A DNA stretch of 64,000 nt from a virus. A program made the translations under genes and the position numbers. Positions 9,089-64,000 of this stretch are shown piece after piece. The notes below the pieces were generated by a model. It saw nothing but the letters and a program-made list of their open reading frames with translations. It had not been told where the DNA came from and did not search any database. Position 1 is the first letter of the stretch. Every line of letters begins with the position of its first letter. The DNA lies in the IMG/VR virus record IMGVR_UViG_3300020187_000009, positions 84,785-148,784 of that record; one strand, given 5' to 3'.

Positions 9089-9101
9089 ATAAAGATAAAT
9101 C

Positions 9102-10197: not shown

Positions 10198-10223
10198 AGT
10201 AATTAAATAATATTAAATATAAG

Positions 10224-11169: not shown

Positions 11170-11820
11170 ATGAAAAAGGTAAAACTATTTGAAGAGTTTG
11201 TCAACGAAGAATCTATTTCATTTGATAAATCGGGTGTTAAATCTAAATTAAAAGACAAGGTTAGAATTGCCAAAATAGCTGTTGAAAAATGGGGCGGTAG
11301 TTATACAAAGGTTTTAAAGAACGCTGAAGCAGCTCTTAAGTCTGGTAAATTACCTAATTATAAAGAACCCTTAATGGTTCAAGGTGATGACAAACAAGAC
11401 GATTATGATATATTTCGAGGAAGAAATTCTGTTAAATTAGCAGAGAAGATTTCTAAAGTAATTAAGAAGTATAAAAAATATGAAGTTGATCAGTCTTCGA
11501 CTGGAGCAGCTGGTGGATGGTCTGGTACAATGAGTTCTACTGTTGGCGGAGAAATTCAAGGTAGAGCAAACTTTAATCCAGGTGGTAGGAGAACCTACTT
11601 AATAGCAGTAACATGTGGGAGTGGGATTGATTCAAAAATTAAAGATAAAATGTTCCAAGAATTATATGAGTTGTTTTTTGTGATGGATCAATATAATTCA
11701 TTAGATGGTGGAGTAATGTTTGACTATAGTGAAGGTACAAATTACGACACTATTGGATTAACTAATGATTCTTATCAATTTGGAAACGCTGCGTCACTAT
11801 CAGACATAATGAATAACTAA
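11170..11820 (+). CDS. Putative capsid-internal protein with targeting-like N-terminus
   Basis: 216 residues with N-terminus MKKVKLFEEFVNEES, the clearest match to the shared leader. The rest includes a Gly/Ser-rich stretch (TGAAGGWSGTMSSTVGGEIQG) and a FFVMDQYNSLDGGVMFDY region; no family recognised. It starts 1 base after the preceding stop. Confidence 0.65.
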   Translation: MKKVKLFEEFVNEESISFDKSGVKSKLKDKVRIAKIAVEKWGGSYTKVLKNAEAALKSGKLPNYKEPLMVQGDDKQDDYDIFRGRNSVKLAEKISKVIKKYKKYEVDQSSTGAAGGWSGTMSSTVGGEIQGRANFNPGGRRTYLIAVTCGSGIDSKIKDKMFQELYELFFVMDQYNSLDGGVMFDYSEGTNYDTIGLTNDSYQFGNAASLSDIMNN

Positions 11821-11824: not shown

Positions 11825-12037
11825 ATGAAACATACTACAGATTTTAACGAGTTTATTAATGAATCTAAAGAATCAGACGCATTAGCAAAGGGAATTAATA
11901 AAGCAATAATTAAAATCGACGATTCAATGTCATATGAGGATTTTGCTTTAGCAGTAGGTAAAGTATTAAAAGACGAATACGGGTCTCACAATTACAAGGG
12001 ATTTATGGAAGTCTTACATAAAAAATTAGGAATATAA
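11825..12037 (+). CDS. Small capsid-internal protein with targeting-like N-terminus
   Basis: 70 residues; MKHTTDFNEFINESK is a variant of the shared leader. After removal a helical domain of about 55 residues remains (SYEDFALAVGKVLKDEYG). It overlaps the next gene by one base (TAATG), which indicates coupled translation. Confidence 0.62.
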   Translation: MKHTTDFNEFINESKESDALAKGINKAIIKIDDSMSYEDFALAVGKVLKDEYGSHNYKGFMEVLHKKLGI

Positions 12038-23962: not shown

Positions 23963-24687
23963 GGTCCGCTCGTGGAGGGGAATCCCCCACCCAAAACAAC
24001 ATTAATAATAAAGACCAAGATAGAGTTAAAGAAGGAGCTAAACAACTAAGTAACAAGGATAATAGAATAAGAATAGTATATAAGATAGAGCTAACCAAAC
24101 TCCTCCCCATACCCCAATACCCCCTAAAAAGATATACAGGAAGATCCAAGCTCACCCAGTCCACCCCCAATACACGCGCGCGTAGGGGCTGCAACCCCCA
24201 ATGTTCAAAAGTTATCCATTTGAGCGGGTTACCTATTAAACCCCTCCATCCATACGCACACAGAACGCAGACGGGCCGGAGCCTATTGCCCACATGGTTT
24301 GCACCCGTTGCACCGGAATTAATTGGGATCCAAAAGTATCCAATAACCGGAGTTACCCTGCTTACCGATCAAAATATTTCATTATCCGGTGATCCAGTAA
24401 GTAACCCCAACCCCTCACACAGGCCAAAATGGCTTATAGTATACCAATAGGACCACACCAGTGTCAAGGATTGAGCCAAGAGGGTCCAAAACTCTTGGTA
24501 CCCTGCTACAGATTTGAAACAATTCAACCTGGCTCACTACTAGGGTGAATACCATTCTTTCGTACCCTGCTACAGATTTGAAATATCCACCTGACTGTGG
24601 TGCATAGAAAAGGGAGGACACCACGACCTCCCAATTCCTTCTATAATTAAAAAGCTGGTTTAAACCTTATCCAGCAGGTTGTAGTTC
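23963..24687 (+). other. Non-coding C-rich convergent region
   Basis: 725 bases between convergent operons. The plus strand is unusually C-rich (CCCCATACCCCAATACCCCC type runs) and holds a GTGGAGGGGAATCCCCCAC hairpin near 23972, a CACGCGCGCG run near 24173 and short direct repeats at 24354-24583. No convincing frame is present; a 76-codon frame at 24220 has no family look. Candidate replication, packaging or structured-RNA region. Confidence 0.6.
24354..24583 (+). repeat. Direct repeats TACCCTGCTACAGATTTGAA
   Basis: A 21-bp sequence is found exactly at 24499-24519 and 24563-24583 (64 bases apart). A partial copy, TACCCTGCTTACCGAT, is at 24354-24369. Possible protein-binding iterons. Confidence 0.75.
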
Positions 24688-25803
24688 TTATTTGTCTACT
24701 ATAATGGTAGGGGTTTCATTTAGGGCTTCTACTGTTTCTGCTTCTGATTGTAGGTTACCGAATAATCTGTCGAATGCATCTTCCTCAGTCTTTAGCTTTT
24801 CTACCTCTTCTTTAACCATCTCCTCGTTGAGTAGGTCTCTTTTGTATCTTGCCTCATCGTATTGAACTCCATTATCGAAGTTAAAGAATAATTTCTTACC
24901 TACATCTCCTACTCGGTTCTTGCTGAATTCCATGTATCTTTGGCCTGAGTTTTCTGTACCTTTCCAGTCCATCTTCATCATTGCTGTGGTCATGTGCTTT
25001 AGCTTATTACTTCCAACGAATGTACCACCTTTAGATAACTGTAGAATAGTTAGGAACGTAGTGTACTTTTTTAGTTTGTTGTTACCTTTATTCTGTAGGG
25101 TCATTTGAGTTAACCACCACTTTTCAGTTTTACCTCTTGACATACCAGACTGCTCTTTTACGGTATCGTTTACTTCAGTATAGGAGTCAGTTAGTACTAG
25201 GTCCCAACCTTGATTAAGAGTGGCTTCCAAAACTTCTTTAGAGTTATCGTCAGTGTAGTCGCTAAGGAATAAGATAGGTAACTGTCCCCAATGTGGGAAA
25301 CGTTTTAGGTAGCGCGCCATATCCAATTGGTTCATTTCAGCAGAGATAAACAAGACTTTACGTTTTGGATTACTCTTTTGTACGTTGTATATAGCTTCAA
25401 GTAGTACAGTTGTTTTACCGACTCCTGGAGCTCCAGTGATCATGTTGTTAGTTCCTGGTAGGAAACCGCCTTCGTTTGAAAGAAAATTGTCGATTGAGGT
25501 TCCAGTAGACATTGGAATGAATAACTCGTCAGAGAAAGCAAGATCGTCCAGTTTGGTAAGGTTAATCTTAAGGTCTCCTGCCTCTTTTCTCTTTTGTGAG
25601 TTCTCTTGAGCATAGTAACCCTCGTAGTCTTTGCGACCTGACCAGGTTCCACGATCTGAGATTGATAAGAGTTTTCCGTCGTTGAGGTATCTCTCTACTG
25701 CTCCATAGCGATCGTGATTTGTTAGGATTTCGATTACCTCGTTTGTTTCAACACTGTTAAGGTGGATTAAGTCTGGGCGTACTCTTTGAATTTTGTATAT
25801 CAT
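24688..25803 (-). CDS. RecA/RadA-like P-loop ATPase
   Basis: 371 residues. Walker A GAPGVGKTT lies near residue 126, preceded by GGFLPGTNNMITG as in KaiC/RadA/DnaB cores. VLFISAEMNQLDMARYL is the RadA-like sensor strand, WDLVLTDSY the Walker B strand, and FSKNRVGDVGKKLFFNFD resembles the RadA KNRFG motif. There is no zinc finger or Lon-like domain. Probably a recombination or branch-migration/helicase-type ATPase in phage replication. Last gene of the minus-strand early block; own promoter module upstream. Confidence 0.8.
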   Translation of the reverse strand: MIYKIQRVRPDLIHLNSVETNEVIEILTNHDRYGAVERYLNDGKLLSISDRGTWSGRKDYEGYYAQENSQKRKEAGDLKINLTKLDDLAFSDELFIPMSTGTSIDNFLSNEGGFLPGTNNMITGAPGVGKTTVLLEAIYNVQKSNPKRKVLFISAEMNQLDMARYLKRFPHWGQLPILFLSDYTDDNSKEVLEATLNQGWDLVLTDSYTEVNDTVKEQSGMSRGKTEKWWLTQMTLQNKGNNKLKKYTTFLTILQLSKGGTFVGSNKLKHMTTAMMKMDWKGTENSGQRYMEFSKNRVGDVGKKLFFNFDNGVQYDEARYKRDLLNEEMVKEEVEKLKTEEDAFDRLFGNLQSEAETVEALNETPTIIVDK

Positions 25804-25817
25804 ATGTGGTGTATTAA

Positions 25818-25896
25818 TTAATTATAGTATAAATATAAACATTTTAATTCTATCCTGAAAACTTTTAGTGAAGTATTTTCAAGAAGTTATTAACAA
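25818..25896 (-). promoter_or_regulatory. Early-type phage promoter module
   Basis: Read on the minus strand: AATTGTTAATAACTTCTTGA, then TTCACTAAAAGTTTTC, then AATGTTTATATTTATACTAT and AATTA. It begins at the stop of the upstream gene and drives the RadA-like ATPase. Confidence 0.75.
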
Positions 25897-26082
25897 TTAA
25901 AAGGCTTTAGTTCCTTTACACTTAAACTTCTCCTCATATACCTTTACGATATCTTTGAATTTTTGATCTACCTCTTGTGGACGGTAAACTTTTGCTTTTA
26001 ATAGATCTCTAGACTTAGCGTCTTTGATCATGATTGTGTCATTTGATTGTTCGATGAGGTACTGTGCTACGATTATTTTCAT
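25897..26082 (-). CDS. Small unknown early protein
   Basis: 61 residues, basic, starting MKIIVAQYLIEQSND; no domain recognised. It sits between two copies of the promoter module, so is transcribed from its own promoter. Confidence 0.65.
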   Translation of the reverse strand: MKIIVAQYLIEQSNDTIMIKDAKSRDLLKAKVYRPQEVDQKFKDIVKVYEEKFKCKGTKAF

Positions 26083-26095
26083 TTTGTTTTTCTTT

Positions 26096-26175
26096 TAATT
26101 ATAGTATAAATATAAACAATTTATTTGATATAGGAAACTGTTTGGTGAATTCTTTTTGAAAAGTTATTAACAATT
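26096..26175 (-). promoter_or_regulatory. Early-type phage promoter module
   Basis: Minus-strand order: AATTGTTAATAACTTTTCAA, GAATTCACCAAACAGTTTCC, then the core ATTGTTTATATTTATACTAT followed by AATTAA. Confidence 0.75.
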
Positions 26176-26177
26176 GA

Positions 26178-26465
26178 TTACATTGGGATAATCATAGAGA
26201 TAGGAGCCTGCATGTTACGACCTTTAGAATCTGTTATAACCAGCTTAGTTCTATTGATTTTCTTAATAGTGAACACTGTACTCTTATGTGAAGGGTGATC
26301 AACCATTACTGGCATACCAACTGAAAGAGATTGTTTAATCGATCGGGATTTAATTGATCTAAGATTCTTTGATTCTTGGATTACAAGTTCGTTTAGGTCT
26401 CTTAATTCTTGAGAAGTTAAATCGGTTGTTTTGATGAGGTTCGCAATTTTTGTGTAGTTCGACAT
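26178..26465 (-). CDS. Small early protein, SH3/KOW-like C-terminus
   Basis: 95 residues. The N-terminal half is helical (LTSQELRDLNELVIQES). The C-terminal half, LSVGMPVMVDHPSHKSTVFTIKKINRTKLVI, looks like a small beta-barrel of KOW/SH3 type as in nucleic-acid-binding proteins. Exact function unknown. Confidence 0.7.
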   Translation of the reverse strand: MSNYTKIANLIKTTDLTSQELRDLNELVIQESKNLRSIKSRSIKQSLSVGMPVMVDHPSHKSTVFTIKKINRTKLVITDSKGRNMQAPISMIIPM

Positions 26466-26485
26466 AGTGTATGTTATTTAGTTAT

Positions 26486-26566
26486 TTAATTATAGTATAA
26501 ATATAATCATTTAAAATGAATCGGGAAAACTTTCGGTGATTTATTTTCAAAAAGTTATTAACAATT
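26486..26566 (-). promoter_or_regulatory. Early-type phage promoter module
   Basis: Minus-strand order: AATTGTTAATAACTTTTTGA, AAATCACCGAAAGTTTTCCC, core AATGATTATATTTATACTAT then AATTAA. It drives the 95-residue gene. Confidence 0.75.
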
Positions 26567-26750
26567 AATAACGGTAGGAATGAGCAATTTCTTCTATGTA
26601 CATTAGATCATCGTCTAATTGTTTAGTGCTAGCAACCATTTCCTCGGCGGCTTTATAAGAATAGGCTCCAGTTGCAACTGCTTTCGCAACTTTCCATGCA
26701 TCTTCTCCTGTTAGGTTTTTAGGTTTTTCGAATAATTCTAATTGTGTCAT
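26565..26750 (-). CDS. Small unknown early protein
   Basis: 61 residues (MTQLELFEKPKNLTGEDAWK...), acidic, helical, unrecognised. Flanked on both sides by promoter modules. Confidence 0.65.
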   Translation of the reverse strand: MTQLELFEKPKNLTGEDAWKVAKAVATGAYSYKAAEEMVASTKQLDDDLMYIEEIAHSYRY

Positions 26751-26763
26751 GGTGTTTGTTATT

Positions 26764-26848
26764 TAATTAATTATAGTATAAATATAATCATTTTTATTGA
26801 CATAAAAAAACTTTTGTGCACTTATTTTCAAAAAAGTTATTAACAATA
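26764..26848 (-). promoter_or_regulatory. Early-type phage promoter module
   Basis: Minus-strand order: ATTGTTAATAACTTTTTTGA, GTGCACAAAAGTTTTTTTAT, GTCA, then the core AATGATTATATTTATACTAT and AATTAA. Box A joins the terminator of the upstream tRNA unit. Confidence 0.75.
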
Positions 26849-29013: not shown

Positions 29014-29241
29014 TTTACTATCTAATCTAGTTGCAGCTTCGTTAACCAGCATTCCAGCAATAAATGATCCTGATATAATAATAGCCATTATAGGATTCTC
29101 CATAGAGTATAGTAACCCAGTAAAGAACATTTTAATTAGGAACGGTATTGCTATTGCAGCTGTAAATAAGATTGCGATTACAGCTAGCGCGAGTTGGCCA
29201 ACTCGTAATTTAAGGATAGACTTCTTAAGGATAGACTTCAT
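29005..29241 (-). CDS. Small two-pass membrane protein
   Basis: 78 residues: a basic N-terminus (MKSILKKSILKLRVG), membrane segments at residues 16-44 (LALAVIAILFTAAIAIPFLI...) and 50-67 (IMAIIISGSFIAGMLV), then a charged tail. Family unknown; probable inner-membrane early protein. Confidence 0.68.
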   Translation of the reverse strand: MKSILKKSILKLRVGQLALAVIAILFTAAIAIPFLIKMFFTGLLYSMENPIMAIIISGSFIAGMLVNEAATRLDSKNC

Positions 29242-29252
29242 ATTGTATGTTT

Positions 29253-29332
29253 TTTAATTATAGTTAAATATAATCATTTTAATTCAATCGGAAAAACTTT
29301 TAGTGATTTATTTTCAAAAAGTTATTAACAAT
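29253..29332 (-). promoter_or_regulatory. Early-type phage promoter module (variant core)
   Basis: Minus-strand order: ATTGTTAATAACTTTTTGA, AAATCACTAAAAGTTTTTCC, then AATGATTATATTTAACTATA and ATTAA, three bases shorter in the core than other copies. First promoter of the minus-strand block. Confidence 0.65.
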
Positions 29333-29413
29333 CATATTCACCCTCGAAAATAGTGCGTCAATACAAATATAAACAAAATCCATGAAACAAAAAAATAAAA
29401 TGGCAACTATTTT

Positions 29414-29428
29414 TGTGAAACTTTCACA
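29414..29428. promoter_or_regulatory. Perfect palindrome in the divergent control region (candidate operator)
   Basis: TGTGAAACTTTCACA is a 7-bp perfect inverted repeat with a one-base centre, placed between the divergent promoters at 29253-29332 and 29515-29573. This is the form of a dimeric repressor site. Confidence 0.45.
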
Positions 29429-29514
29429 GGAACGGACCTATAATATAAGCCATAGATAGGCAAGTAGAGAGCCTCCCCCTATATCTATAGACCGAAGCGG
29501 AAAAGTTTTTTAAA

Positions 29515-29573
29515 AATAAATCACTAAAAGTTTTTTTATGTCATGGATTTTGTTTATATTAGTACTATAATTA
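29515..29573 (+). promoter_or_regulatory. Early-type phage promoter module
   Basis: AATAAATCACTAAAAGTTTT, TTTATGTCATGG, then the core TTGTTTATATTAGTACTATA and ATTAA. Start codon 14 bases downstream. Confidence 0.72.
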
Positions 29574-29586
29574 AAAAACATACAAT

Positions 29587-29874
29587 ATGAAAAGCGAGAA
29601 ACACTACGAGGCATGGCCACTTGCCGAATCAAAACAATTTATCGAATCCTATTTAAAAGGAGTTACCCGAATAGACCAATCAGTTCTATGTAAGCAGATA
29701 GCGGTAGATCTTGGAAGATCCACAGCAGCTGTTAAGCTCAGGGTATTAGAAGTCAAGAGAATCCTTGATAGGACTAATGAATATCCTATCATAACTCCTA
29801 ATATGGAATTAGCCGTTGATTGGGCAATAAGCGAATTAGGATATTCAAAGAATAGAATTTTAAATTTATGCTAA
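29587..29874 (+). CDS. Putative DNA-binding regulator, SANT/Myb-like
   Basis: 95 residues. WPLAESKQFIESYLKG...LCKQIAVDLGRSTAAVKLRVLEVKRIL has the spacing of a SANT/Myb-type helix-turn-helix (tryptophan, then a recognition helix after GRS). As the first plus-strand gene beside the divergent control region it could control the switch. Confidence 0.6.
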   Translation: MKSEKHYEAWPLAESKQFIESYLKGVTRIDQSVLCKQIAVDLGRSTAAVKLRVLEVKRILDRTNEYPIITPNMELAVDWAISELGYSKNRILNLC

Positions 29875-29933
29875 AATAAGTGCACAAAAGTTTTTTTATG
29901 TCAAATAAAATGATTATATTTATACTATAATTA
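29874..29933 (+). promoter_or_regulatory. Early-type phage promoter module
   Basis: AAATAAGTGCACAAAAGTTT, TTTTATGTCAA, then the core AATGATTATATTTATACTAT and AATTAA. Start codon 14 bases downstream. Confidence 0.75.
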
Positions 29934-29946
29934 AAAAACAAACAAC

Positions 29947-30303
29947 ATGAACATTTCAATTACACTAGCAGAAGAACAGCTAATTAAAGAAGCCCTAACT
30001 GATCTACAGGACGCTCTAGTAGGTCAAGGCGTTAAGCACAATACTATCTCTGATATTCTTAATAAGATTAATAATGCCGGAATAATTAAGTCAGAGCGCA
30101 CACCTAGAGTCTTTGTTAATAAGCAATATATGTTTACATTCGAAGGAGGAGGTTGGAATACTATATGGGCTAAAACCAAAAAGGGAGCTATTAAAGCAGC
30201 TCTAATAGAATATAAAGGGAGTCCTAATTTAAACCCCCGCCTGGACTCATTTCATATAGCAACTGAAAGGGGATTAGAATCAGCAATGTCACTCTTTTAC
30301 TAA
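29947..30303 (+). CDS. Unknown early protein
   Basis: 118 residues. The N-terminal half is helical (LAEEQLIKEALTDLQDALVG). The second half, VFVNKQYMFTFEGGGWNTIWAKTKKGAIKAA, looks like a small alpha/beta domain. No family recognised. Own promoter; the next microprotein overlaps its stop (TAATG). Confidence 0.68.
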   Translation: MNISITLAEEQLIKEALTDLQDALVGQGVKHNTISDILNKINNAGIIKSERTPRVFVNKQYMFTFEGGGWNTIWAKTKKGAIKAALIEYKGSPNLNPRLDSFHIATERGLESAMSLFY

Positions 30304-30386
30304 TGATACTACTAATCAAACTGGCATTTATCGCAGCAGTAGCATTTGTTGTTATAAACAGGATCTTCCACTATTGGGACAAGTAA
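30303..30386 (+). CDS. 27-residue membrane microprotein
   Basis: MILLIKLAFIAAVAFVVINR then IFHYWDK: one membrane helix with a short polar tail. The ATG overlaps the preceding stop in TAATG, and the stop directly abuts the next promoter module. Small but well-placed. Confidence 0.5.
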   Translation: MILLIKLAFIAAVAFVVINRIFHYWDK

Positions 30387-30466
30387 TTGTTAATAACTTT
30401 TTTGAAAATAAGTGCACAAAAGTTTTTTTATGTCAATAAAAATGATTATATTTATACTATAATTAA
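30386..30466 (+). promoter_or_regulatory. Early-type phage promoter module (complete copy)
   Basis: ATTGTTAATAACTTTTTTGA, then AAATAAGTGCACAAAAGTTT, TTTTATGTCAA, then the core AATGATTATATTTATACTAT and AATTAA. The fullest plus-strand copy; start codon 20 bases downstream. Confidence 0.8.
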
Positions 30467-30486
30467 ATAACTAAATAACATACACC

Positions 30487-30933
30487 ATGAAGAACAAAAA
30501 CATTATCAACAGGACAGGAATCCAATCAGTAGACATCATTAATAACCTCCACTATCCTACCGGAGCAGGTAAATTCAGATTTATAACTAAATGTCAAGCG
30601 GGTTATATGACCTGTAACGACGCAAGAGACTTCGATGATCAAAGATTATACGAAAACCCAGCAGGAGTATTAAGTAGCTATAAGAAAGGAGCCCTACATA
30701 CAGTAGAATATAAGCCAGTTGGATCCGATACATACTTCACAGTATTCGCGAAAAGGGGAAATAAGATCCTTATAATGGACGAAGCAATCATGATGGGATT
30801 AGATATAGGAACAGTTAACCAATTATGGTTCAACACAAACCTATATAACCAAGACCAATATAGAGCAGTTAATAGCAAGACTTGGGCTGACAAAGTATTC
30901 GTTATGAACCAACCCCAAATGGAATTAGCATAA
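30487..30933 (+). CDS. Unknown early protein
   Basis: 148 residues, mixed alpha/beta (KFRFITKCQAGYMTCNDARDF...YFTVFAKRGNKILIMDEAIM). No domain recognised. Overlaps the next gene by one base (TAATG). Confidence 0.7.
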   Translation: MKNKNIINRTGIQSVDIINNLHYPTGAGKFRFITKCQAGYMTCNDARDFDDQRLYENPAGVLSSYKKGALHTVEYKPVGSDTYFTVFAKRGNKILIMDEAIMMGLDIGTVNQLWFNTNLYNQDQYRAVNSKTWADKVFVMNQPQMELA

Positions 30934-39562: not shown

Positions 39563-40534
39563 ATGAATAGAATAGAAGAACAATACCGAGCGTTACTTGG
39601 AACCCTATTAGAAAACTCAACAGAAAAATCAGATCGCACTGGAACTGGAACACTATCAGTATTCGGTCGCCAGATCAGACACAACATGAAGGATGGATTT
39701 CCTCTGCTAACTACCAAGAGGATGGCGGTTAAGACAATGTTAGTGGAGTTAAAATGGTTTCTAAGAGGTGATACTAACATTAAATATCTTGTTGATAATG
39801 GGTGTAACATCTGGAATGGCGATGCTTATAAGAAATACTGTAAAGCACACCCCTCTGAATATCAAGATGATATGTTTACCCAAGAGGAATTCGTAGAGCA
39901 TATTAAAGAAGATGAATCATTCGCTAAAAATTGGGGTGAGTTAGGTCCTATCTATGGTAAACAATGGAGAGAATGGGGTTCTAGAAGTTCTTATAATAAA
40001 ATCACAGGTGAAAATAATATAATGAATCCTGGACATGATCAAATCGCAAACCTAATCAATGAACTTAAAACAAATCCAGATTCACGTAGACTTATGGTCA
40101 ATGCTTGGAATGTTGGTGAGTTAGATCAAATGACACTTCCACCATGTCACTATGGATTCCAAGTTTATACACGATTAACTACTAGAGAAGAAAAGATTGT
40201 AAATCCTGGAAAATACAGAGCAATCTCTTTAATGTGGAACCAAAGAAGTTGCGATTTATTTCTCGGACTTCCGTTTAATATTGCAAGCTATGCAGCACTT
40301 CTTTGTTTAATAGCAGAAGAGGTTAATATGGTTCCAGATCAATTAATTGGAAACTTAGGTGATGTTCACTTATATAAGAATCATATTGAACAAGCAAGAG
40401 AACAATTAACTAGGGAAATGTATGATTTACCAACAGTTGAATTTAGTAACGTAGATTTATTAGGTGGTGAATTCGATATTGAAGTAAAGGATTATAAATA
40501 TCATCCAAGTATTAAAGCGCCTCTATCAAATTAA
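39563..40534 (+). CDS. thyA: Thymidylate synthase
   Basis: 323 residues. DRTGTGTLSVFGRQIRHNM (folate/phosphate loop), MTLPPCHYGFQVYTRL with the catalytic Cys195, MWNQRSCDLFLGLPFNIASYA with Asn239 that selects dUMP, and GDVHLYKNH. It makes dTMP from dUMP and methylene-tetrahydrofolate. A dUMP hydroxymethylase cannot be excluded from sequence alone, since these share the residues named. Confidence 0.92.
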   Translation: MNRIEEQYRALLGTLLENSTEKSDRTGTGTLSVFGRQIRHNMKDGFPLLTTKRMAVKTMLVELKWFLRGDTNIKYLVDNGCNIWNGDAYKKYCKAHPSEYQDDMFTQEEFVEHIKEDESFAKNWGELGPIYGKQWREWGSRSSYNKITGENNIMNPGHDQIANLINELKTNPDSRRLMVNAWNVGELDQMTLPPCHYGFQVYTRLTTREEKIVNPGKYRAISLMWNQRSCDLFLGLPFNIASYAALLCLIAEEVNMVPDQLIGNLGDVHLYKNHIEQAREQLTREMYDLPTVEFSNVDLLGGEFDIEVKDYKYHPSIKAPLSN

Positions 40535-41270: not shown

Positions 41271-42356
41271 ATGAAAAACAATAAAATCTTTCTACACAAT
41301 TATTTAAACGCATATGCACCAGTAGCACAAGAGACTGAAGGTCAGCAAATCTGGACAGATTATATTAAACAGTATGTTGATTTTTTAAAGCAGGATGCAT
41401 ATGGAACTTCGTATGGTGTGCTTAAGCGTAAATTAAGGAAATATGAGACTCTTGATGTAAATACACATAAAGTAGTTATTGAAGCACACTGTGATGAGAT
41501 TGCATGGATTATTACACACATTGAAAGTGATGGTATGATCAGAGTAAAGCGACACGGAGGCAGTGATAATATGATCGCACCTTCTAAGACTGTAATGATC
41601 CATACACATGACGGTAGGAAATTACGTGGTCTTTTTGGATGGCCAGCAATTCATACTCGTGAAAAGTACACATCAATGGGCTATGAACAACATGAGCTTT
41701 GGGTAGATATGGGTCTTAAAGATAAAGAAGCAGTACTTAAAGCTGGAGTTGAGATTGGTAACCTTATAACATTCGACACTCAATTAGAAGAGATCGGAGA
41801 CTATTATGTTGGTCGATCATTAGATAATAAGATAGGCGGATATATTATAGCAGAGGCACTTAGAAAGATCTCAGAAGATAATGTTAACTTACCATATGAT
41901 TTATATGTTGTTAATAGCGTTCAAGAAGAGGTTGGTCTTCATGGTGCTAAAAAGATTGCTAAACACTTAAAGGCTGATTTGGCCCTGGTACATGATGTGT
42001 GTCACAATACAAATACACCTAAGATTGACAAGGCAAAGGATGGAGATAATAAAGGTGGAGATGGTCCATGCTTAGAATATACTGCACAAAATCATAGAGA
42101 CATTAATAAAATGTTAAGAGAGGTTGCAAAGGATAATAAGATTCCAGTTCAACTAACAGCTGGGTCGATGGGCAATGATACAATGGCATTCTTTATGGAG
42201 AATACACCAACTGCCATCATCGCTTCACCGCTTAAATACATGCACACAACCGTTGAGTCAGTACACCGTCGAGACGTAAAGTATGCTATTAAATTATTTG
42301 TTGAGTTTTTAAAGGCATTAACCCCAGAAAAAATCAATAAAATTAATAATAGATAA
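41271..42356 (+). CDS. M42-family metallo-aminopeptidase
   Basis: 361 residues. VVIEAHCDEIAWII (His and Asp/Glu ligands), GRSLDNKIGGYI (bridging Asp), NSVQEEVGLHGAKK (catalytic Glu pair), LVHDVCH and KYMHTTVESVHRRD (last His ligand) are complete, so it should be an active two-zinc aminopeptidase/deblocking enzyme. It starts 1 base after the LOG gene. Together with ClpC and ClpP downstream it could finish protein degradation to amino acids. Confidence 0.9.
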   Translation: MKNNKIFLHNYLNAYAPVAQETEGQQIWTDYIKQYVDFLKQDAYGTSYGVLKRKLRKYETLDVNTHKVVIEAHCDEIAWIITHIESDGMIRVKRHGGSDNMIAPSKTVMIHTHDGRKLRGLFGWPAIHTREKYTSMGYEQHELWVDMGLKDKEAVLKAGVEIGNLITFDTQLEEIGDYYVGRSLDNKIGGYIIAEALRKISEDNVNLPYDLYVVNSVQEEVGLHGAKKIAKHLKADLALVHDVCHNTNTPKIDKAKDGDNKGGDGPCLEYTAQNHRDINKMLREVAKDNKIPVQLTAGSMGNDTMAFFMENTPTAIIASPLKYMHTTVESVHRRDVKYAIKLFVEFLKALTPEKINKINNR

Positions 42357-42379: not shown

Positions 42380-42407
42380 AAGGGAGCCTGTATTGGCTCC
42401 TTTTTTG
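42380..42407 (+). terminator. Rho-independent terminator
   Basis: AAGGGAGCC and GGCTCCTTT pair around TGTATT and end in a T run. Confidence 0.85.
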
Positions 42408-42510: not shown

Positions 42511-44526
42511 ATGTCATTAGCAGACGGATACGAAAATGAAAAGGGCCGAAATAAAAAGACCAAGACTAATACGCCATTCTTAGATGAGTATGGTGAAGAT
42601 ATGACTAAATTAGCAGCAGACGGTAAATTAGACCCTATTATTGGTAGAGATAAAGAGATCTATAGAATTTGTCAGATTCTTGCTCGTAGGAAAAAGAATA
42701 ATCCTATTATATTAGGAGATCCTGGTGTAGGTAAAACTGCAATTGTTGAAGCGATTGCACAGCGAATTGTCAGTAAAAAAGTTGCAAGAGTGCTACTAAA
42801 CAAAAGAGTAATTTCTATCAGCATGACAAATATAGTCGCAGGTACAAAATATCGTGGCGAATTTGAAGAGAGAATGAAAAGCATTGTAGATGAACTCAAA
42901 TCTGCTAAAAACATTATCGTATTCATCGATGAGTTACATACAATAGTAGGAGCAGGCGGTGTAAGTGGTGCATTAGACGCTTCTAACATTTTAAAACCAG
43001 CATTAGCAAGAGGCCAAGTACAATGTATTGGAGCAACGACACTAGATGAATATAGAGAAAACATCGAAGACGATGGTGCACTAACTCGTAGATTTCAAGA
43101 AGTTTTCGTGGATCCTCCTTCGGTTGATGATACTATTGAGATTCTTAATAGAATTAAAGGACAGTATGAAGAACACCACTCAGTTGAATATACTGACGAT
43201 GCAATAATAGCATGCGTAAAAATGAGCGAGCGATATATTAAATCTAGAGAATTGCCAGATAAAGCAATTGATCTATTAGACGAATCTGGTGCAAGAACTC
43301 ATTTGCTAGAAGTTAAAATACCTGCAAAAATTAAAAACCTTGAAAGAGATGCTGAAATTGTAAGATTAAAAAAAGAATCAGCAGTATCCGGACAAGATTA
43401 TGAATTAGCAGCACAGCTGCGCGATGAGCAGCTTGTAATCGATGACAAGGTAATAGTTGAAACTGAAAAGTGGGAAGATTCTCTTAAAAAAACAAAGAGA
43501 AAGGTAGATGTTGAAGATATTGCAGAAACTATTTCTATGCAAACTGGAATTCCAGTACAGCGACTAGGCCTTGATGAAAAGAAACTCATCATATCTATGG
43601 CTAAGGAGATAAAAAAACAAATTATAGGACAAGACGCTGCGGTTGATGCTCTTTCTACTGTAATTAAGAGATCTCGAACAGGAGTAAGCAGTCATAAAAA
43701 GCCAGTAGGTTCATTTATGTTCTTGGGTCCTACTGGTGTAGGTAAAACTGAGACCGTTAAGGCACTTGCTGAATATATGTTTGGGGATACTGACGCTATG
43801 GTTAGAATAGATATGTCAGAATACCAAGAAAAGTTTAATGTTTCTCGTCTAATTGGTTCTCCTCCAGGATACGTAGGACATGAAGATGGTGGACAATTAA
43901 CAGAGGCAGTTCGTAGAAAGCCGCACTCTGTGATTCTATTCGATGAGGTTGAAAAGGCACATCCTGATGTATTTAACACATTGTTGCAAGTTTTAGATGA
44001 TGGTAGATTAACGGATTCTAGTGGAAGGATTGTTGATTTTACAAATACAATTATTGTAATGACTTCAAATATAGGTGCTCGTAAGGTAGCAGACTTTGGA
44101 ACAGGAGTAGGATTTCAAAGCGATAGTATATTGCTACAACAAAGCGCTAAGATTGAAGGTATAATTAAGAAAGAATTAAAGAATAAATTTAGTCCTGAAT
44201 TTTTAAACAGACTAGACGATATTATTCTATTTGATCACCTAACGATCGAAAATGTAATTAAGATAGTAGACATTGAGTTGTCAACATTTAACGAAAGAAT
44301 GATAGAAGAAGGATATAATTTTAAATTCATGAAAAGCGCCAAAGAGTTTATAGCAAATGAAGGATACGACAAGGCATACGGTGCTCGACCTGTAAAAAGA
44401 GCAATTCAAAAATATGTAGAGGACCTAATTGCAGACCTAATATTAACTGAAGAAATTACTCCAAGAGAAGATGCGTATACTCTTAGTAAACTTAAGTCAG
44501 ATAATAAACTAAACCTTAAATCCTAA
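42511..44526 (+). CDS. ClpC-like AAA+ unfoldase without N-domain
   Basis: 671 residues. Two AAA+ modules: GDPGVGKT (residues 69-76) with FIDELHT and the pore loop GTKYRGEFEERMK, then GPTGVGKTE (about 406-414) with LFDEVEKAHPDV and the second pore region PGYVGHEDG. Between them is a UVR-like helix pair (YELAAQLRDEQ) as in ClpC. A GVGFQ near residue 533 sits where ClpP-docking loops (LGF/IGF) are. The usual Clp N-domain is missing; about 35 unstructured residues replace it, so substrate choice may differ from the host's. A clpP-like gene lies two genes downstream. Confidence 0.92.
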   Translation: MSLADGYENEKGRNKKTKTNTPFLDEYGEDMTKLAADGKLDPIIGRDKEIYRICQILARRKKNNPIILGDPGVGKTAIVEAIAQRIVSKKVARVLLNKRVISISMTNIVAGTKYRGEFEERMKSIVDELKSAKNIIVFIDELHTIVGAGGVSGALDASNILKPALARGQVQCIGATTLDEYRENIEDDGALTRRFQEVFVDPPSVDDTIEILNRIKGQYEEHHSVEYTDDAIIACVKMSERYIKSRELPDKAIDLLDESGARTHLLEVKIPAKIKNLERDAEIVRLKKESAVSGQDYELAAQLRDEQLVIDDKVIVETEKWEDSLKKTKRKVDVEDIAETISMQTGIPVQRLGLDEKKLIISMAKEIKKQIIGQDAAVDALSTVIKRSRTGVSSHKKPVGSFMFLGPTGVGKTETVKALAEYMFGDTDAMVRIDMSEYQEKFNVSRLIGSPPGYVGHEDGGQLTEAVRRKPHSVILFDEVEKAHPDVFNTLLQVLDDGRLTDSSGRIVDFTNTIIVMTSNIGARKVADFGTGVGFQSDSILLQQSAKIEGIIKKELKNKFSPEFLNRLDDIILFDHLTIENVIKIVDIELSTFNERMIEEGYNFKFMKSAKEFIANEGYDKAYGARPVKRAIQKYVEDLIADLILTEEITPREDAYTLSKLKSDNKLNLKS

Positions 44527-44548
44527 TATAATATTAAAATAATATAAT

Positions 44549-45388
44549 ATGAGTTTTTCACAAACATTTATAGATTTAGTCAATGAGATCGAAGACAACG
44601 GTACTGAATCTTCTCCAAGAGATATGAAAGTAAAAGAAGCAATGATGGCTTCTTTTGATATAGATCCAACGCATCCAATTGCAGATTTTAAAGACCGTCC
44701 ATTTAACTTTAAATATTTTACAGGAGAGCTTGCATGGTATCTCCACAGAGATAATGATGTTGATTACATTTCTAACTTTTCTAAATTTTGGAAAAACTTA
44801 ACAAATGAAGGAACTAATGAAATTAATTCTAATTATGGAAGTTTAGTACTTAACGATAAGCAAGTTGGATGGGTTGTTGATTCTTTAGTAAATGATAAGA
44901 ATTCAAGACAGGCAATTATGTTTTTTAATCAGCCTAAATTTCAAGTAGAAGGAAATAAAGATTTTGTATGTACTCTATACGCAAACTTTTTTATTAGAAA
45001 TAATACGCTATATATGAAGGTTCAGATGAGATCAAATGATATATTCTTTGGACTTACATTTGATGCACCATTCTTTTCATTCCTTCATCAATCTATTTTT
45101 TTAATACTAAAAGATAAATATAAAGACCTTGAACTTGGTCACTATTTCCATAATTCAGATAACCTACATTTTTATGAAAGACATTTTAATCTAGCATCAG
45201 AAATTAAAGAAAATGGAATCGGAAGCGAATACTCATTAATACTAAAAAACAAATTACTAGATTATAATAGTGATAATGGAGTATATCTAACTGACCAGGG
45301 ATTAGAATTTTTGCAAAGAGTTGATAATTCAATTAAGATGAAGGACGCAAATTACAAGAATATATTAAACGATTATTTCGAAATATAA
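44549..45388 (+). CDS. TS-superfamily enzyme, candidate dCMP hydroxymethylase
   Basis: 279 residues. A divergent thymidylate synthase fold: ESSPRDMKVKEAMMASFDI, RPFNFKYFTGELAWYLHRD, FVCTLYANFFIRNN with catalytic Cys141, and MRSNDIFFGLTFDAP with Asp172. The Asn of thymidylate synthase (GLPFN) is Asp here, the change that makes T4 gp42-type enzymes accept dCMP. A 5-hydroxymethyl-dCMP synthase is therefore likely. It lies between clpC-like and clpP-like genes. Confidence 0.75.
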   Translation: MSFSQTFIDLVNEIEDNGTESSPRDMKVKEAMMASFDIDPTHPIADFKDRPFNFKYFTGELAWYLHRDNDVDYISNFSKFWKNLTNEGTNEINSNYGSLVLNDKQVGWVVDSLVNDKNSRQAIMFFNQPKFQVEGNKDFVCTLYANFFIRNNTLYMKVQMRSNDIFFGLTFDAPFFSFLHQSIFLILKDKYKDLELGHYFHNSDNLHFYERHFNLASEIKENGIGSEYSLILKNKLLDYNSDNGVYLTDQGLEFLQRVDNSIKMKDANYKNILNDYFEI

Positions 45389-45389
45389 G

Positions 45390-45710
45390 ATGGAAGAATA
45401 TACTGAAGATAATATACCAATAATTAGAATAGATCCACTAAAAATTTCAAAGGCAGATCTAGATCTAAATTTAATGGCAAAATATGATGTTTTCTACCGA
45501 AGAATAGTCGAATACACTCTAGCATACATTGAAGATATGCCAGTAACCGAAATACTAGTTATATTAATAGACGATGAAGGAATAGAATATGAAATGTGCC
45601 TTCCTCCTCAAGGATTTTCTAAGTCTCTTAATAAGTCAATGGAATACTTTAAACAAATAGAAGAATACGAAACCTGCGATTTAATAAAGCAAATTTTAAA
45701 AAACATATGA
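45390..45710 (+). CDS. Unknown acidic protein
   Basis: 106 residues, acidic (NIPIIRIDPLKISKADLDLN; VTEILVILIDDEGIEYEMC). It starts 1 base after the hydroxymethylase-like gene and overlaps clpP in ATGA. Possibly an adaptor or inhibitor of the Clp proteins by position only. Confidence 0.6.
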   Translation: MEEYTEDNIPIIRIDPLKISKADLDLNLMAKYDVFYRRIVEYTLAYIEDMPVTEILVILIDDEGIEYEMCLPPQGFSKSLNKSMEYFKQIEEYETCDLIKQILKNI

Positions 45711-46384
45711 ATTATTTCCCAAAAGATAAAGAATTTAACAGGTTTGCACAGAGTGAACTTAACATTGGATCCTCAAAAATAGACATGTATTCGAAGCATA
45801 TACAAGGATCGATGACACCTTATATCCTAGAAGAGAGAGAATTAAGAGCTACTCAAATGGATATTTTTAGTAGATTAATGATGGACAGATTACTGTGGGT
45901 TGCTGGTCCAGTAAATGATCAAATGTCAACTGTAGTACAAGCACAGCTGATGTTTTTAGATACCACATCATCTGATGATATTACAATGCATATTGATTCT
46001 CCAGGAGGCTCAGTTAAGTCAGGACTATCTATGGTAGATGTAATGGACTACATTAAAGCTGATATTAGAACCATTAATACTGGAATGGCCGCCTCAATGG
46101 GTTCAGTATTATTAGGCGCTGGAACTAAAGGTAAGAGGATGTCACTAAAACACTCAACAACAATGCTACATCAATCTTCTGGAGGATTCAGTGGTAATAT
46201 ACAAGACGCTGAAATTGATTGGAAAAATTGGAAAGAAGTAAACCGCGAACTTTTTGTACTTCTAGGAGAATATTGCGGAAAACCAGCAGACGTAGTTATG
46301 AATGACGCTACTAGAGATTTCTGGCTTAGCGCTGAACAGGCAGTCGAGTACGGTATTATTGATGAAATAATTAAAAAAAGATAA
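45707..46384 (+). CDS. ClpP-family serine protease
   Basis: 225 residues. VAGPVNDQMSTVVQAQLMFLD, MHIDSPGGSVKSGLSM, NTGMAASMGSVLLGAG with catalytic Ser130, STTMLHQSSGG with His155 and NDATRDFWLSAEQAVEYGIID with the Asp. All catalytic parts are present. About 30 extra N-terminal residues may be a propeptide. With the upstream ClpC-like unfoldase it forms a phage-borne Clp protease; a prohead protease role, known for other S14 proteases, is the alternative. Confidence 0.93.
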   Translation: MNYFPKDKEFNRFAQSELNIGSSKIDMYSKHIQGSMTPYILEERELRATQMDIFSRLMMDRLLWVAGPVNDQMSTVVQAQLMFLDTTSSDDITMHIDSPGGSVKSGLSMVDVMDYIKADIRTINTGMAASMGSVLLGAGTKGKRMSLKHSTTMLHQSSGGFSGNIQDAEIDWKNWKEVNRELFVLLGEYCGKPADVVMNDATRDFWLSAEQAVEYGIIDEIIKKR

Positions 46385-46390: not shown

Positions 46391-46699
46391 ATGAGTAGAA
46401 GAGATTTAGAAAGCGAAGTGTTTTTAACACTCGTAAACAAGCAGTTAGAGCCATTCAATGTAAAATTTGAAGAAGTTAAAAATAATCCAGACTGGTACAT
46501 GGAGTATCAAACAACTACAGAAAAAGAATCTGAATTTATTAAATGGGGAGCTGACATCATTAAAACTAAACTGAAGCTGACTAAGTCTGCTGCAAATCAA
46601 GAGATGAACTGGTTTATTCTTCAATGGGGACTGACCACTGCATCGCCAAGCAGCGTATCTCAAAAAATAAATAAGCCAAAAAAAATAAATAAGGCTTAG
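46391..46699 (+). CDS. Small conserved phage protein
   Basis: 102 residues. NPDWYMEYQTTTEKESEFIKW, then QEMNWFILQWGLTTA is a pattern I know from T4-like and marine phage genomes without known function. It lies 6 bases after clpP. Confidence 0.65.
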   Translation: MSRRDLESEVFLTLVNKQLEPFNVKFEEVKNNPDWYMEYQTTTEKESEFIKWGADIIKTKLKLTKSAANQEMNWFILQWGLTTASPSSVSQKINKPKKINKA

Positions 46700-50246: not shown

Positions 50247-50502
50247 TATATAAAGAAAATATAAATAAAAATTATGCCTAAGGAATTTAACGGTGGTATT
50301 GGAATCGCAACAGGTTTCAACTTACAAGATCCACAACCAATAGACGATAGATTAGTAGTTGGACTACTGGCCGATTTAATAAGTAATGCTGCGTTACCAA
50401 ATCCTTACCCGGGTATGGTTGTTTCTGTAGCTTCAGAAGGTTACGATCTTTATAGATGGAACGGTACCGATAGAACACAATCATCAAACTGGATTCTAGT
50501 AG
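49284..50502 (+). repeat. Long direct repeat: shared fibre N-terminal module
   Basis: 49284-49494 and 50292-50502 are nearly identical (same GGTGGTATTGGAATCGCAAC beginning), encoding the first roughly 75 residues of two neighbouring proteins. Confidence 0.88.
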
Positions 50503-51938
50503 GAAGTAGCGAATCAGGAACTTCAGGAATAAACGGAACTTCAGGAACAGATGGAACAGATGGAGATACTGGAGCTAATGGTTTACCAGGAGAAAACGGA
50601 ACTTCAGGAATAAACGGAACTTCAGGAACAGATGGAGCTGATGGAGCTAATGGTTTACCAGGAAACAACGGAACTGATGGAGAAAACGGAACTTCAGGAA
50701 TAAACGGAACTTCAGGAACAGATGGAGCTGATGGAGCTAATGGTTTACCAGGAAACGACGGTGCTGCTGGAACTTCAGGAACAGACGGAAACGACGGTGC
50801 TGCTGGAAACGACGGTGCTGATGGAACTTCAGGAACAGACGGAAACGACGGCGCTGCTGGAAACGATGGTGCTGATGGAACAAGCGGAACAGACGGAAAC
50901 GATGGTGCTGCTGGAAACGACGGTGCTGATGGAACTTCAGGAACAGACGGAAACGATGGTGCTGCTGGAAACGACGGTGCTGATGGAACAAGCGGAACAG
51001 ACGGAAACGATGGTGCTGCTGGAAACGACGGTGCTGATGGAACTTCAGGAACAGACGGAAACGACGGTGCTGCTGGAAACGACGGTGCTGATGGAACAAG
51101 CGGAACAGACGGAAACGACGGTGCTGATGGAACAAGCGGAACAGACGGAAACGACGGTGCTGCTGGAAACGACGGTGCTGATGGAACTTCAGGAACAGAC
51201 GGAAACGACGGTGCTGCTGGAAACGACGGTGCTGATGGAACTTCAGGAACAGACGGTGCTGCTGGAAACGACGGTGCTGATGGAACTTCAGGAACAGACG
51301 GAAACGACGGTGCTGATGGAACTTCAGGAACAGACGGAAACGACGGTGCTGATGGAACAAGCGGAACAAGCGGAACTTCAGGTCCAGGAGTACCTTCGGG
51401 AGGAGCTACTGGAGAAACTCTTGTAAAAATAGACGGCACTGATTATAATACACAATGGGCTACTGCTGCTAGTGGATCCGGAGTTAATAGCTATTTACTT
51501 AGACTTGATTATGACACTAGTAATCACTTAGTAAATAATTTAACTCAGAATACTTTTATAGGAGCAACTGGTTACGAGACAACTGGAGCAAGTGTATCAA
51601 GTGTTAGTGTTAATACTGGAACTGCAGTATATACAGCAACTATATCATTTGCTAATGAATCAAATCCACCACAAAATATTTTAATATATGCATGGAACCC
51701 TGTTACATATACATATCAAGTGCATCCATATAGAGTAGACGCTGCTGACCTAAAAATAGACACAGTAGCTGGCGACTTTACGTCGTCCTCTAACCAATAC
51801 ACACCGGATATTTTTGGATCATTTGATGGAGTCACCACTACTATTGATGTGAGACAGGATTTTATTAAATATGGAAATGCAACTGGTTTAGGAGCTGGTA
51901 GAAGATTTGCACATGCATATGTTGTATTCACATTTTAA
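50274..51938 (+). CDS. Collagen-like fibre protein
   Basis: 554 residues. Residues 1-77 are the shared N-terminal module. Residues about 78-375 are uninterrupted Gly-X-Y triplets, mainly [38 protein letters not shown] linker follows, as in the first collagen-like fibre, and then a beta-rich tip of about 155 residues. No Pro-rich triplets, so stability must come from Thr/Asn/Asp and trimer contacts. Expected trimeric fibre. Confidence 0.85.
   Translation: MPKEFNGGIGIATGFNLQDPQPIDDRLVVGLLADLISNAALPNPYPGMVVSVASEGYDLYRWNGTDRTQSSNWILVGSSESGTSGINGTSGTDGTDGDTGANGLPGENGTSGINGTSGTDGADGANGLPGNNGTDGENGTSGINGTSGTDGADGANGLPGNDGAAGTSGTDGNDGAAGNDGADGTSGTDGNDGAAGNDGADGTSGTDGNDGAAGNDGADGTSGTDGNDGAAGNDGADGTSGTDGNDGAAGNDGADGTSGTDGNDGAAGNDGADGTSGTDGNDGADGTSGTDGNDGAAGNDGADGTSGTDGNDGAAGNDGADGTSGTDGAAGNDGADGTSGTDGNDGADGTSGTDGNDGADGTSGTSGTSGPGVPSGGATGETLVKIDGTDYNTQWATAASGSGVNSYLLRLDYDTSNHLVNNLTQNTFIGATGYETTGASVSSVSVNTGTAVYTATISFANESNPPQNILIYAWNPVTYTYQVHPYRVDAADLKIDTVAGDFTSSSNQYTPDIFGSFDGVTTTIDVRQDFIKYGNATGLGAGRRFAHAYVVFTF
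50506..51383 (+). repeat. Collagen-coding repeat array, 54-bp units
   Basis: From 50767 on, units of about 54 bp (GGAACAGACGGAAACGACGG...) alternate two spellings of Thr-Ser-Gly (ACTTCAGGA and ACAAGCGGA) and of Asp (GAC/GAT), which marks block duplications. Confidence 0.92.
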
Positions 51939-56405: not shown

Positions 56406-57767
56406 ATGTTCAATACGGAAAGTTGGAATTATGACGGCGTAGAATTTATAGAATTCTATGGCTTAAGAAAGAGCGGCAACATCGAAGTAATAGAATGGTT
56501 GATGTCAAACATGAGCGATTCTAATCTTCCTGTTGACGTATTAATAGCACCAAATCCAGAAACCGGATTTATGGTAAGTAGATGTGGAAACATTTATCAT
56601 TTAAACGATGTAGGATCTTTATGGGGAGTTGGACATCCCGAATATATTTCTGGATTAATTGATGCATATGTCTCAATGGGCGCTAAAAAGATAATTATAT
56701 CCTATAGAGACTATGACCACAATGTAAGTCTAACACATACTTTCCCCGAGAACAGCACGTTCCATAAATTAAAAGGATGTAGGCAGATTATATTACTTAG
56801 AGATATTGTTAATCTTTTGCCGATTAGATATGCTGCGCAATTAAACAGCAATGATCTTAAGTTATTTGACATAGATATTAACAAAATAAACTCTTGGATA
56901 GTTTCTGCAATTTCTGAAAATACAATTAAAATAAGACATGAGGACTTAAAGTCTTCTAGAGAATATCAAACTGAGATATGCGTCACATTAGGTATTAATA
57001 ACACTACAAAGTTTAACAGTCTAGAATCAATAGATGATATTAAAGTACCAAAACATTGGAGTGACTTGCTACATGAACTTCCAGTAATTAGAGCTAGAAG
57101 AAAGGCTGGATTTATTAAACCAAAAAAGACTGCTGAATTAATTAAAGCAATTGGAGATTCTCATACTTCAATATTTGATGCGTATACGGGTTCAGATTAT
57201 ATCTTTGAACAAACAAGAGTACATGGTGCAACTGCAAGAGGTGCAATTAATCCAAAAACAAAAACAGACTCTCTTAGAATTTTTAAGGAAGGTCTTTCAG
57301 GTACTATTGCGAATAGGGTAATCATAGGATTAGGAGAGGTAGATTGCGGATATATTATATGGTACAAAAATAAACACGATGGAATTTCTCTTGAGGATGG
57401 AATAAAACAGAGCATGGATGGATTATTTACTTTTGTTAAGCAAGAGGTAGAAAAGATCTATCAGCCATCTCAAATAATATTGATGGCTTCAATTCCTCCT
57501 ACGATTGAAGATAATACTGATCCTAGATTTTTAGAAGGTAGGAGATCTGATGTTAATCCAACACTTAAGCAAAGGGCGGATTTAACCAGAGATTGGAATA
57601 GATTACTAGAAAAAAGGTGTAAGGACGAAGGATATCGATGTATGAATATAAATAATTATATAATAGACTCGAATGATAGAGTAAAAAACACTTATCGAAA
57701 TAATAATCCATGGGATCATCACCTATTAGAGCACGCTGCGCTACCAATAATATTAGATATTTTATAA
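56406..57767 (+). CDS. P-loop-like domain plus SGNH-hydrolase-like domain
   Basis: 453 residues. Residues 12-30 ([20 protein letters not shown]) resemble a sulfotransferase-type P-loop; [19 protein letters not shown] fits that fold. Residues about 247-453 are SGNH-like: [14 protein letters not shown] (Ser), [13 protein letters not shown] (block III) and [11 protein letters not shown] (Asp/His). A two-domain sugar-modifying enzyme is inferred; both calls are by motif only. Confidence 0.62.
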
Positions 57768-61408: not shown

Positions 61409-64000
61409 ATGTCAAGAGTATCATTAAAAGACTTAGCATCACTTGTATCTAACCTTAGGATGCAAGGACAAGATATTTCAGCCAAAAAGCTAAAATATAA
61501 AGATTCGCTGTTTACAGGTGCAAACAAACCAAGCGGGTATTCCTCAGACGAAGAATATACAAAACTCAATAAGCTAGGACCTATTGTTGATGATCTAATA
61601 GATGGACTAAAGGCAGTAGAAGATGAACTTTCTGATATTCACCAATATATTGAGGGTCAATTAGGAAATGCGGCAGATGAGATGGTTCTTCCTCCTAACT
61701 TGACCTTTTTAGATCCTGTAGGTAATAAACATTCTATTATCTCTTTTGATGAAAATTCAAAGAAGAAGCAAATTCATATTGATGAAGTAACGGCAGCAGC
61801 AGATTTAACATTAACATCTGGTGGAAACATCATAGTAGGAAGCGAACCTATAATAAACAGATCTGGCCAATGGGTTGGCCCTAATAGTGGTCTAAAGGGT
61901 AATACTGGCTCTACTGGAGCACAAGGTAATACTGGAGCACAAGGTACTGTAGGTCAAAAAGGACAGACTGGTAATACTGGAGCACAAGGTAATACTGGAG
62001 CACAAGGTAATACTGGAGCACAAGGTACTGTAGGTCAAAAAGGACAGACTGGTAATACTGGAGCACAAGGTTCTACTGGAGCACAAGGTACTGTAGGTCA
62101 AAAAGGACAGACTGGTAATACTGGAGCACAGGGTAATACTGGAGCACAAGGTAATACTGGAGCACAAGGTACTGTAGGTCAAAAAGGACAGACTGGTAAT
62201 ACTGGAGCACAAGGTAATACTGGAGCACAAGGAGCTTCTGTACTTGACGCAAGATTAGAAGGTGCAAATCTAGTAATTGAAGGAGAAGCATTCGGTGCAT
62301 TAAACGTAGGTAGGGTATATGGTAATACAGGTTCTACTGGAGCACAAGGTACTTTAGGTCAAAAAGGACAGACTGGTAATACTGGAGCACAAGGTAATAC
62401 TGGAGCTACTGGAGCAAGAGGAGCACAAGGTAATACTGGAGCACAAGGTAATGTAGGTCAAAAAGGACAGACTGGTAATACTGGAGCACAAGGTAATGTA
62501 GGTCAAAAAGGACAGACTGGTAATACTGGAGCACAAGGTAATACTGGAGCACAAGGTACTTTAGGTCAAAAAGGACAGACTGGTAATACTGGAGCACAAG
62601 GTAATACTGGAGCTACTGGAGCAAGAGGAGCACAAGGTAATACTGGAGCACAAGGTAATACTGGAGCACAAGGTACTGTAGGTCAAAAAGGACAGACTGG
62701 TAATACTGGAGCACAAGGTAATACTGGAGCAAGAGGAGCACAAGGTAATACTGGAGCTACTGGAGCTTCTGTACTTGACGCAAGATTAGAAGGTGCAAAT
62801 CTAGTAATTGAAGGAGAAGCATTCGGTGCATTAAACGTAGGTAGGGTATATGGTAATACTGGAGCACAAGGTAATGTAGGTCAAAAAGGACAGACTGGTA
62901 ATACTGGAGCACAAGGTAATACTGGAGCTACTGGAGCAAGAGGAGCACAAGGTAATACTGGAGCACAAGGTAATACTGGAGCTACTGGAGCAAGAGGAGC
63001 ACAAGGTAATACTGGAGCACAAGGTAATACTGGAGCTGCTGGATCAAATGGTTCAAATGGTTCTAGAGGAGCACAAGGTAATACTGGAGCACAAGGTAAT
63101 ACTGGAGCACAAGGTAATGTAGGTCAAAAAGGACAGACTGGTAATACTGGAGCACAAGGTAATACTGGAGCTTCTGTACTTGACGCAAGATTAGAAGGTG
63201 CAAATCTAGTAATTGAAGGAGAAGCATTCGGTGCATTAAACGTAGGTAGGGTATATGGTAATACAGGTTCTACTGGAGCACAAGGTAATACTGGAGCTAC
63301 TGGAGCAAGAGGAGCACAAGGTAATACTGGAGCTGCTGGATCAAATGGTTCAAATGGTTCTAGAGGAGCACAAGGTAATACTGGAGCACAAGGTAATACT
63401 GGAGCTACTGGAGCAAGAGGAGCACAAGGTAATACTGGAGCTACTGGAGCAAGAGGAGCACAAGGTAATACTGGAGCACAAGGTAATGTAGGTCAAAAAG
63501 GACAGACTGGTAATACAGGTTCTACTGGAGCACAAGGTAATACTGGAGCTACTGGAGCAAGAGGAGCACAAGGTAATACTGGAGCTACTGGAGCAAGAGG
63601 AGCACAAGGTAATACTGGAGCACAAGGTAATGTAGGTCAAAAAGGACAGACTGGTAATACAGGTTCTACTGGAGCACAAGGTAATACTGGAGCTACTGGA
63701 GCAAGAGGAGCACAAGGTAATACTGGAGCTACTGGAGCAAGAGGAGCACAAGGTAATACTGGAGCACAAGGTAATGTAGGTCAAAAAGGACAGACTGGTA
63801 ATACTGGAGCACAAGGTAATGTAGGTCAAAAAGGACAGACTGGTAATACTGGAGCACAAGGTAATACTGGAGCTACTGGAGCAAGAGGAGCACAAGGTAA
63901 TACTGGAGCTACTGGAGCTTCTGTACTTGACGCAAGATTAGAAGGTGCAAATCTAGTAATTGAAGGAGAAGCATTCGGTGCATTAAACGTAGGTAGGGTA
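61409..64000 (+). CDS. Collagen-like fibre protein, 3' end outside the window
   Basis: ATG at 61409; open for at least 864 codons to the window edge. Residues 1-165 ([40 protein letters not shown]) are a globular attachment part. From residue about 166 collagen triplets [24 protein letters not shown] run to the edge, broken four times by an almost identical spacer of about 30 residues ([20 protein letters not shown] then [10 protein letters not shown]). With over 690 repeat residues it is already the longest collagen array in the window. Confidence 0.88.
61892..64000 (+). repeat. Collagen-coding repeat array with four spacer copies
   Basis: 9-18 bp units GGAGCACAAGGTAATACT, GGAGCTACTGGAGCAAGAGG and GGTCAAAAAGGACAGACTGG are mixed over more than 2.1 kb. 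The spacer GCTTCTGTACTTGACGCAAG... starts at 62234, 62765, 63171 and 63917 with essentially identical DNA. Confidence 0.95.

Follow-up and report, generated by a model that had tools for sequence, protein, structure and literature searches.

The 64,000-nucleotide window analysed here runs from base 84785 to base 148784, the last base of its viral record, which is T4-like since it bears portal, gp23-type capsid and contractile-sheath genes. On the plus strand of the window lies a run of five genes. It opens with a clpC-like gene (42511..44526), whose 671-aa product has Pfam, PHROG and PDB matches that describe an unfoldase with two AAA+ modules, an M-domain and no N-domain. After a 22-nt gap comes a dCMP-hydroxymethylase-like enzyme of the T4 gp42 type (44549..45388; closest solved structure T4 dCMP hydroxymethylase 1b49, E 1.4e-17), followed 1 nt later by a 106-aa open reading frame (ORF) (45390..45710) whose stop overlaps the start of clpP by 4 nt. 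The clpP gene (45707..46384) encodes 225 aa, and a 102-aa ORF (46391..46699) stands 3′ of it; the latter recurs in related contigs and is often conserved, and it found no family match in Pfam and PHROG profile searches. The initial annotation had placed both clp genes at these same positions and, rightly, two genes apart; the two intervening genes belong to the same run.

Upstream, on the same strand, is a gene for a TET-type M42 aminopeptidase (41271..42356; PF05343, E 2e-65), an accessory neighbor outside the conserved cassette. Between it and clpC we found a terminator-like hairpin with a U-run (42380..42403, plus strand; RNA fold -14.8 kcal/mol, z -3.7), which a simple terminator scan missed, probably since the U-run begins within the stem. 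Scans for the T4 late promoter (TATAAATA) and for Bacteroidota promoters gave matches not above chance. The 106-aa ORF returned no PDB fold match below E 0.001; we rejected a UVR-type adaptor identity for it, given this result and no Pfam support even at E 10, and by position alone it is a candidate regulator, adaptor or activator. A fold search with a 236-aa ORF yielded a weak, partial DUF1491-type match only. Elsewhere in the window, a full thymidylate synthase gene (39563-40534) exists besides the separate dCMP-hydroxymethylase-like gene, which hints that the phage DNA contains modified cytosine, and a collagen-like protein with long Gly-rich repeats is encoded at 50274-51938.

The unfoldase has the anatomy of a ClpC from which the N-domain is missing. 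Its domain matches are AAA (6e-26), AAA_2 (5e-69), AAA_lid_9 and ClpB_D2-small (2e-22), and among solved structures it comes closest to S. aureus ClpC (6em8, E 2e-222), in a match that begins at chain residue 151. Alignment with bacterial ClpC bears out the two full AAA+ modules reported from the sequence at first sight: both Walker A/B pairs and Arg-finger regions are in place, with the D1 Walker A GDPGVGKT at 42715..42738, the D2 Walker A GPTGVGKT at 43726..43749, and the pore loops KYRG and GYVG. A ClpC-type M-domain occupies aa 277-327 (43339..43491), a short coiled coil with a UVR motif match at aa 285-310, in which Tyr297 takes the position of S. aureus Phe436. The putative ClpP loop noticed at the outset also aligns as such: VGF (aa 533-535, 44107..44115) is the predicted ClpP-docking tripeptide, conforms to the [LIV]GF form of ClpC, and appears as [VI]GF in the aligned phage and Bacteroidota sequences. 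We considered and ruled out a ClpB disaggregase, for which the protein scores 832 bits against an NCBIfam cut-off of 1232 bits and in which the ClpP loop would be out of place.

The absence of the N-domain is a property of the whole group. There is no Clp_N match, and the frame is too short to hold such a domain in 51 of 51 distinct relatives, the stop-to-stop frame never exceeding 695 aa among these cassette unfoldases. By comparison, the best ClpC match in 60 of 61 sampled Bacteroidota genomes sits in an open frame of 832 aa or more, the remaining genome giving partial ClpC matches only. In a quick tree, phage ClpC groups with Bacteroidota ClpC (100% SH-aLRT), and the ClpC of huge phages nests among Bacteroidota as well. 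Independent N-domain losses are not claimed, since a single origin of the N-less ClpC was not rejected (AU p 0.26). A loss at the M-domain tip like that of F436 was rejected: the aromatic is retained as Tyr in 55/55 phage enzymes, and Tyr holds this position in 10 of 30 Bacteroidota sequences too.

The partner peptidase is catalytically intact and altered elsewhere. ClpP passes the PF00574 cut-off (E 7e-57), and the intact triad proposed for it (Ser130-His155-Asp204) is retained in all 55 phage relatives. In S. aureus ClpP, activation proceeds through a switch in which changes at Y63, M31 and N42 create new contacts with G33 and N65 (PMC9035409); Y63A renders that enzyme constitutively active, and E. 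coli ClpP is likewise activated by the corresponding substitution (PMC9035409, PMC6853987). Comparison with this network places W64, A66, T75, H95 and D97 of the phage protein (45896..45997) at the switch positions. The S. aureus residues M31, G33, N42, Y63 and N65 are replaced by W, A, T, H and D in 53/55 cassette ClpPs (W, A, H and D each in 55, T in 53). The conserved Tyr63 network, a regulatory feature outside the catalytic definition of ClpP, is thus not kept. The W-A-T-H-D set was absent from the 36 bacterial ClpPs sampled and likewise from 37 further viral ones, 25 of which have the host-type FGNYN; it recurred in 14 of 15 ClpPs from a later collection, two of which (L327, L329) come from records already within the first set. 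All five switch positions fall among the 37 of 192 clade-fixed positions, with a chance of 2e-4 (1e-3 without Y63), figures that are partly post hoc because Y63 had caught our attention before the set of positions was consulted. Substitutions fixed in the clade occupy 17% of positions in ClpP versus about 5% in ClpC, a threefold difference in density.

Huge phages carry related combinations. A 634-kb phage record (LR745206) combines a WATHD ClpP with an N-less ClpC, and LR756502 pairs an N-less ClpC with FGNYN, so that N-domain loss and WATHD can part. Huge-phage and intermediate ClpPs (L316/L321, L317/L322, L338, L357) show WATHD, FGNYN, WSDYQ and WAVYD; WAVYD (L357) and WSDYQ (L338) may be intermediate gate forms, and such proteins could reveal in what sequence the gate changed.

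Unfoldase and peptidase travel together. ClpP lies in the same locus for 50 of 51 distinct cassette unfoldases, and the clpC to clpP order repeats in many viral contigs. Within 50 cassettes, the dCMP-hydroxymethylase-like gene is universal, the 106-aa ORF is found in 35 and M42 in one other lineage (L007/L008). When 31 ClpP-bearing records were searched whole, 30 contained a ClpC-type D2 domain; one of these sits in a broken frame, the others in frames of 659-687 aa. We also searched for ClpP in the 18 records of a second group of viral unfoldases, which are more distant and almost always too short to include an N-domain: 13 contain it, and those lacking it are all shorter than 112 kb. A 60-kb fragment (L048) has ClpC and no ClpP. 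The pairing does not depend on adjacency, because several records near 270 kb in length have clpC and clpP far apart. The initial annotation had treated a paired unfoldase as unusual; the pairing, like the missing N-domain, is conserved across dozens of phages, but it is less rare than supposed: among other ClpP-bearing phage records of very large size, every one of the six tested has an unfoldase gene.

Purifying selection acts strongly on both genes, whose median pairwise dN/dS is 0.043 for ClpC and 0.041 for ClpP; the 106-aa ORF gives 0.33, from seven pairs only. Because both proteins branch with Bacteroidota homologues, gene relatedness, the one line of evidence here, suggests Bacteroidota hosts.

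We next considered the proposal that ClpP matures the head by cutting at ESVVTE sites. A dedicated enzyme contradicts it: a Peptidase_S77 (gp21-type) gene, the other prohead protease that might be sought near the capsid gene, stands between the portal and capsid genes (record bases 24337-26184). S77 is present in 23 of 31 related records, and of the 13 records from a second phage class, 10 have a relative of this record's S77 protein. SVVTE sites, two to four per ORF and mostly ESVVTEA, occur in three large ORFs (window 6825-8798 and 12037-14187; record bases 29066-30814), a pattern suggestive of head proteins that resemble polyproteins and are cleaved by the S77 protease; we take the sites to fit the gp21-like form hydrophobic-x-Glu. 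The best PHROG matches of ClpP are head-maturation profiles, which is explained by the ClpP fold that ClpP-like head proteases share. Against the NCBIfam model of a ClpP-related head maturation protease (NF045542), the phage protein reaches 67.9 bits, below the cut-off of 120; its best match is bacterial ClpP, and the clpC and clpP genes are far from the head cluster. Given the S77/gp21 gene in the genome and the gp21-like sites, a head-protease role for ClpP is very unlikely. As a separate observation, some eleven ORFs have in common a leader like MKHIKLFEQFINEA, similar to the sequences that target T4 internal proteins to the capsid (among them window 5679-6275, 8813-9503 and 11170-11820; record bases 9783-10521, 26203-26781, 56442-57492 and 62829-63584).

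The sequence shows the gene pair and its domain anatomy, active sites that are intact, conservation, the action of purifying selection and the changed switch residues. On this basis we consider it likely that the phage encodes an ATP-dependent protease of the ClpCP type, with a naturally occurring delta-N ClpC as its unfoldase. We infer that ClpC hexamers would dock onto phage ClpP via their VGF loops, forming a complex in which the pore loops draw proteins into the ClpP chamber. An unfoldase of this build could rely neither on host adaptors that require the N-domain nor on phospho-arginine tags, and should bind ClpP adaptor-free. In S. aureus, removal of the N-domain from ClpC makes the resting state less stable and lets ClpC bind ClpP with no adaptor present; with the M-domain tip intact, such ClpC did not degrade test substrates, and proteolysis also needed loss of F436 (PMC12583610). 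Since the M-domain aromatic is kept, the phage enzymes should resemble delta-N ClpC and not the fully deregulated double mutant. The retained aromatic would still permit control, and the phage enzyme may need an activator, given that the S. aureus construct with an intact tip degraded none of the test substrates. The replaced switch network probably gives the machine a gating that differs from the host enzyme's and is adapted to its own partner, although the Tyr-to-His change could also be neutral or inhibitory. The protease would be used early in infection, remodelling the host proteome; degradation of host defence or transcription proteins, as first proposed for this pair, is plausible. A stronger version, in which N-domain loss frees the unfoldase from host control and ClpP opens without a host-type switch, would make the pair an orthogonal, pre-activated protease, a private degradation channel closed to host ClpX and ClpC; this we regard as possible but doubtful.

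Three other explanations compete with that of a ClpCP protease remodelling the host proteome. The pair might act mainly on phage proteins, in quality control, in turnover of scaffold or aborted assemblies, or in unfolding during assembly. Large phages make many structural and internal proteins, and one study proposes that unfoldases aid virion assembly (PMC7824862). The gene run, however, has a dCMP-hydroxymethylase-like gene and not head genes, and we judge such a role unlikely. In T4, the dCMP hydroxymethylase gene is an early gene. Bulk recycling, with ClpCP cutting host proteins to peptides and the M42 aminopeptidase releasing amino acids for virion synthesis, draws on the TET-type enzyme directly upstream of clpC; yet M42 is rare among cassettes and set off from clpC by the hairpin, so it cannot explain the conserved pair, and recycling is unlikely.

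The two proteins might instead work separately with host partners, phage ClpC feeding host ClpP or phage ClpP docking host ClpX or ClpC. The host-like VGF loop, the L048 fragment and the records with distant genes agree with this. ClpC and ClpP nevertheless co-occur near-obligately, and the docking pocket and gate of phage ClpP are unlike those of every sampled host ClpP, which leaves separate work quite unlikely.

Compared with known systems, the phage-encoded ClpCP-type protease is closest to the housekeeping ClpCP of Bacteroidota, the nearest cellular relatives found (up to 57% identity for ClpC and 50% for ClpP). The two share AAA+ modules, M-domain, [VI]GF loop and triad; they differ in the N-domain, absent from phage ClpC, and in the five gate-switch residues of phage ClpP. 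The S. aureus delta-N ClpC laboratory construct likewise has two AAA+ modules and an M-domain without the N-domain (PMC12583610), whereas phage ClpC is natural and conserved, carries Tyr and not Phe at the M-domain tip, and is paired with its own altered ClpP. SPO1 Gp53 also exemplifies phage control of ClpCP, but as an adaptor-like protein on host ClpC (PMC6873191); here the phage encodes the whole protease. Phage-encoded Clp ATPases are known from jumbo phages, where several Clp parts including ClpP are annotated (Atu_ph07, PMC6102473; PMC7824862), and from Bacteroidota-associated moraphages, with a core gene annotated ClpA (PMC12619734). The accessible portions of these three sources do not describe N-domain loss, a fixed cassette or gate-switch changes, and in the open-access literature we found no earlier account of this cassette, of the missing N-domain or of the gate signature. 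Clp sets in phages had thus already been annotated (PMC6102473); what is new here is the WATHD change at the activation-switch positions of ClpP.

The pair is a compact candidate tool for protein degradation outside host control, and as a natural variant it makes the ClpP activation network testable. If our reading is true, large phages would own, beyond scattered Clp parts, a conserved, co-encoded protease from which evolution has removed the regulatory domain and in which it has altered the gate.
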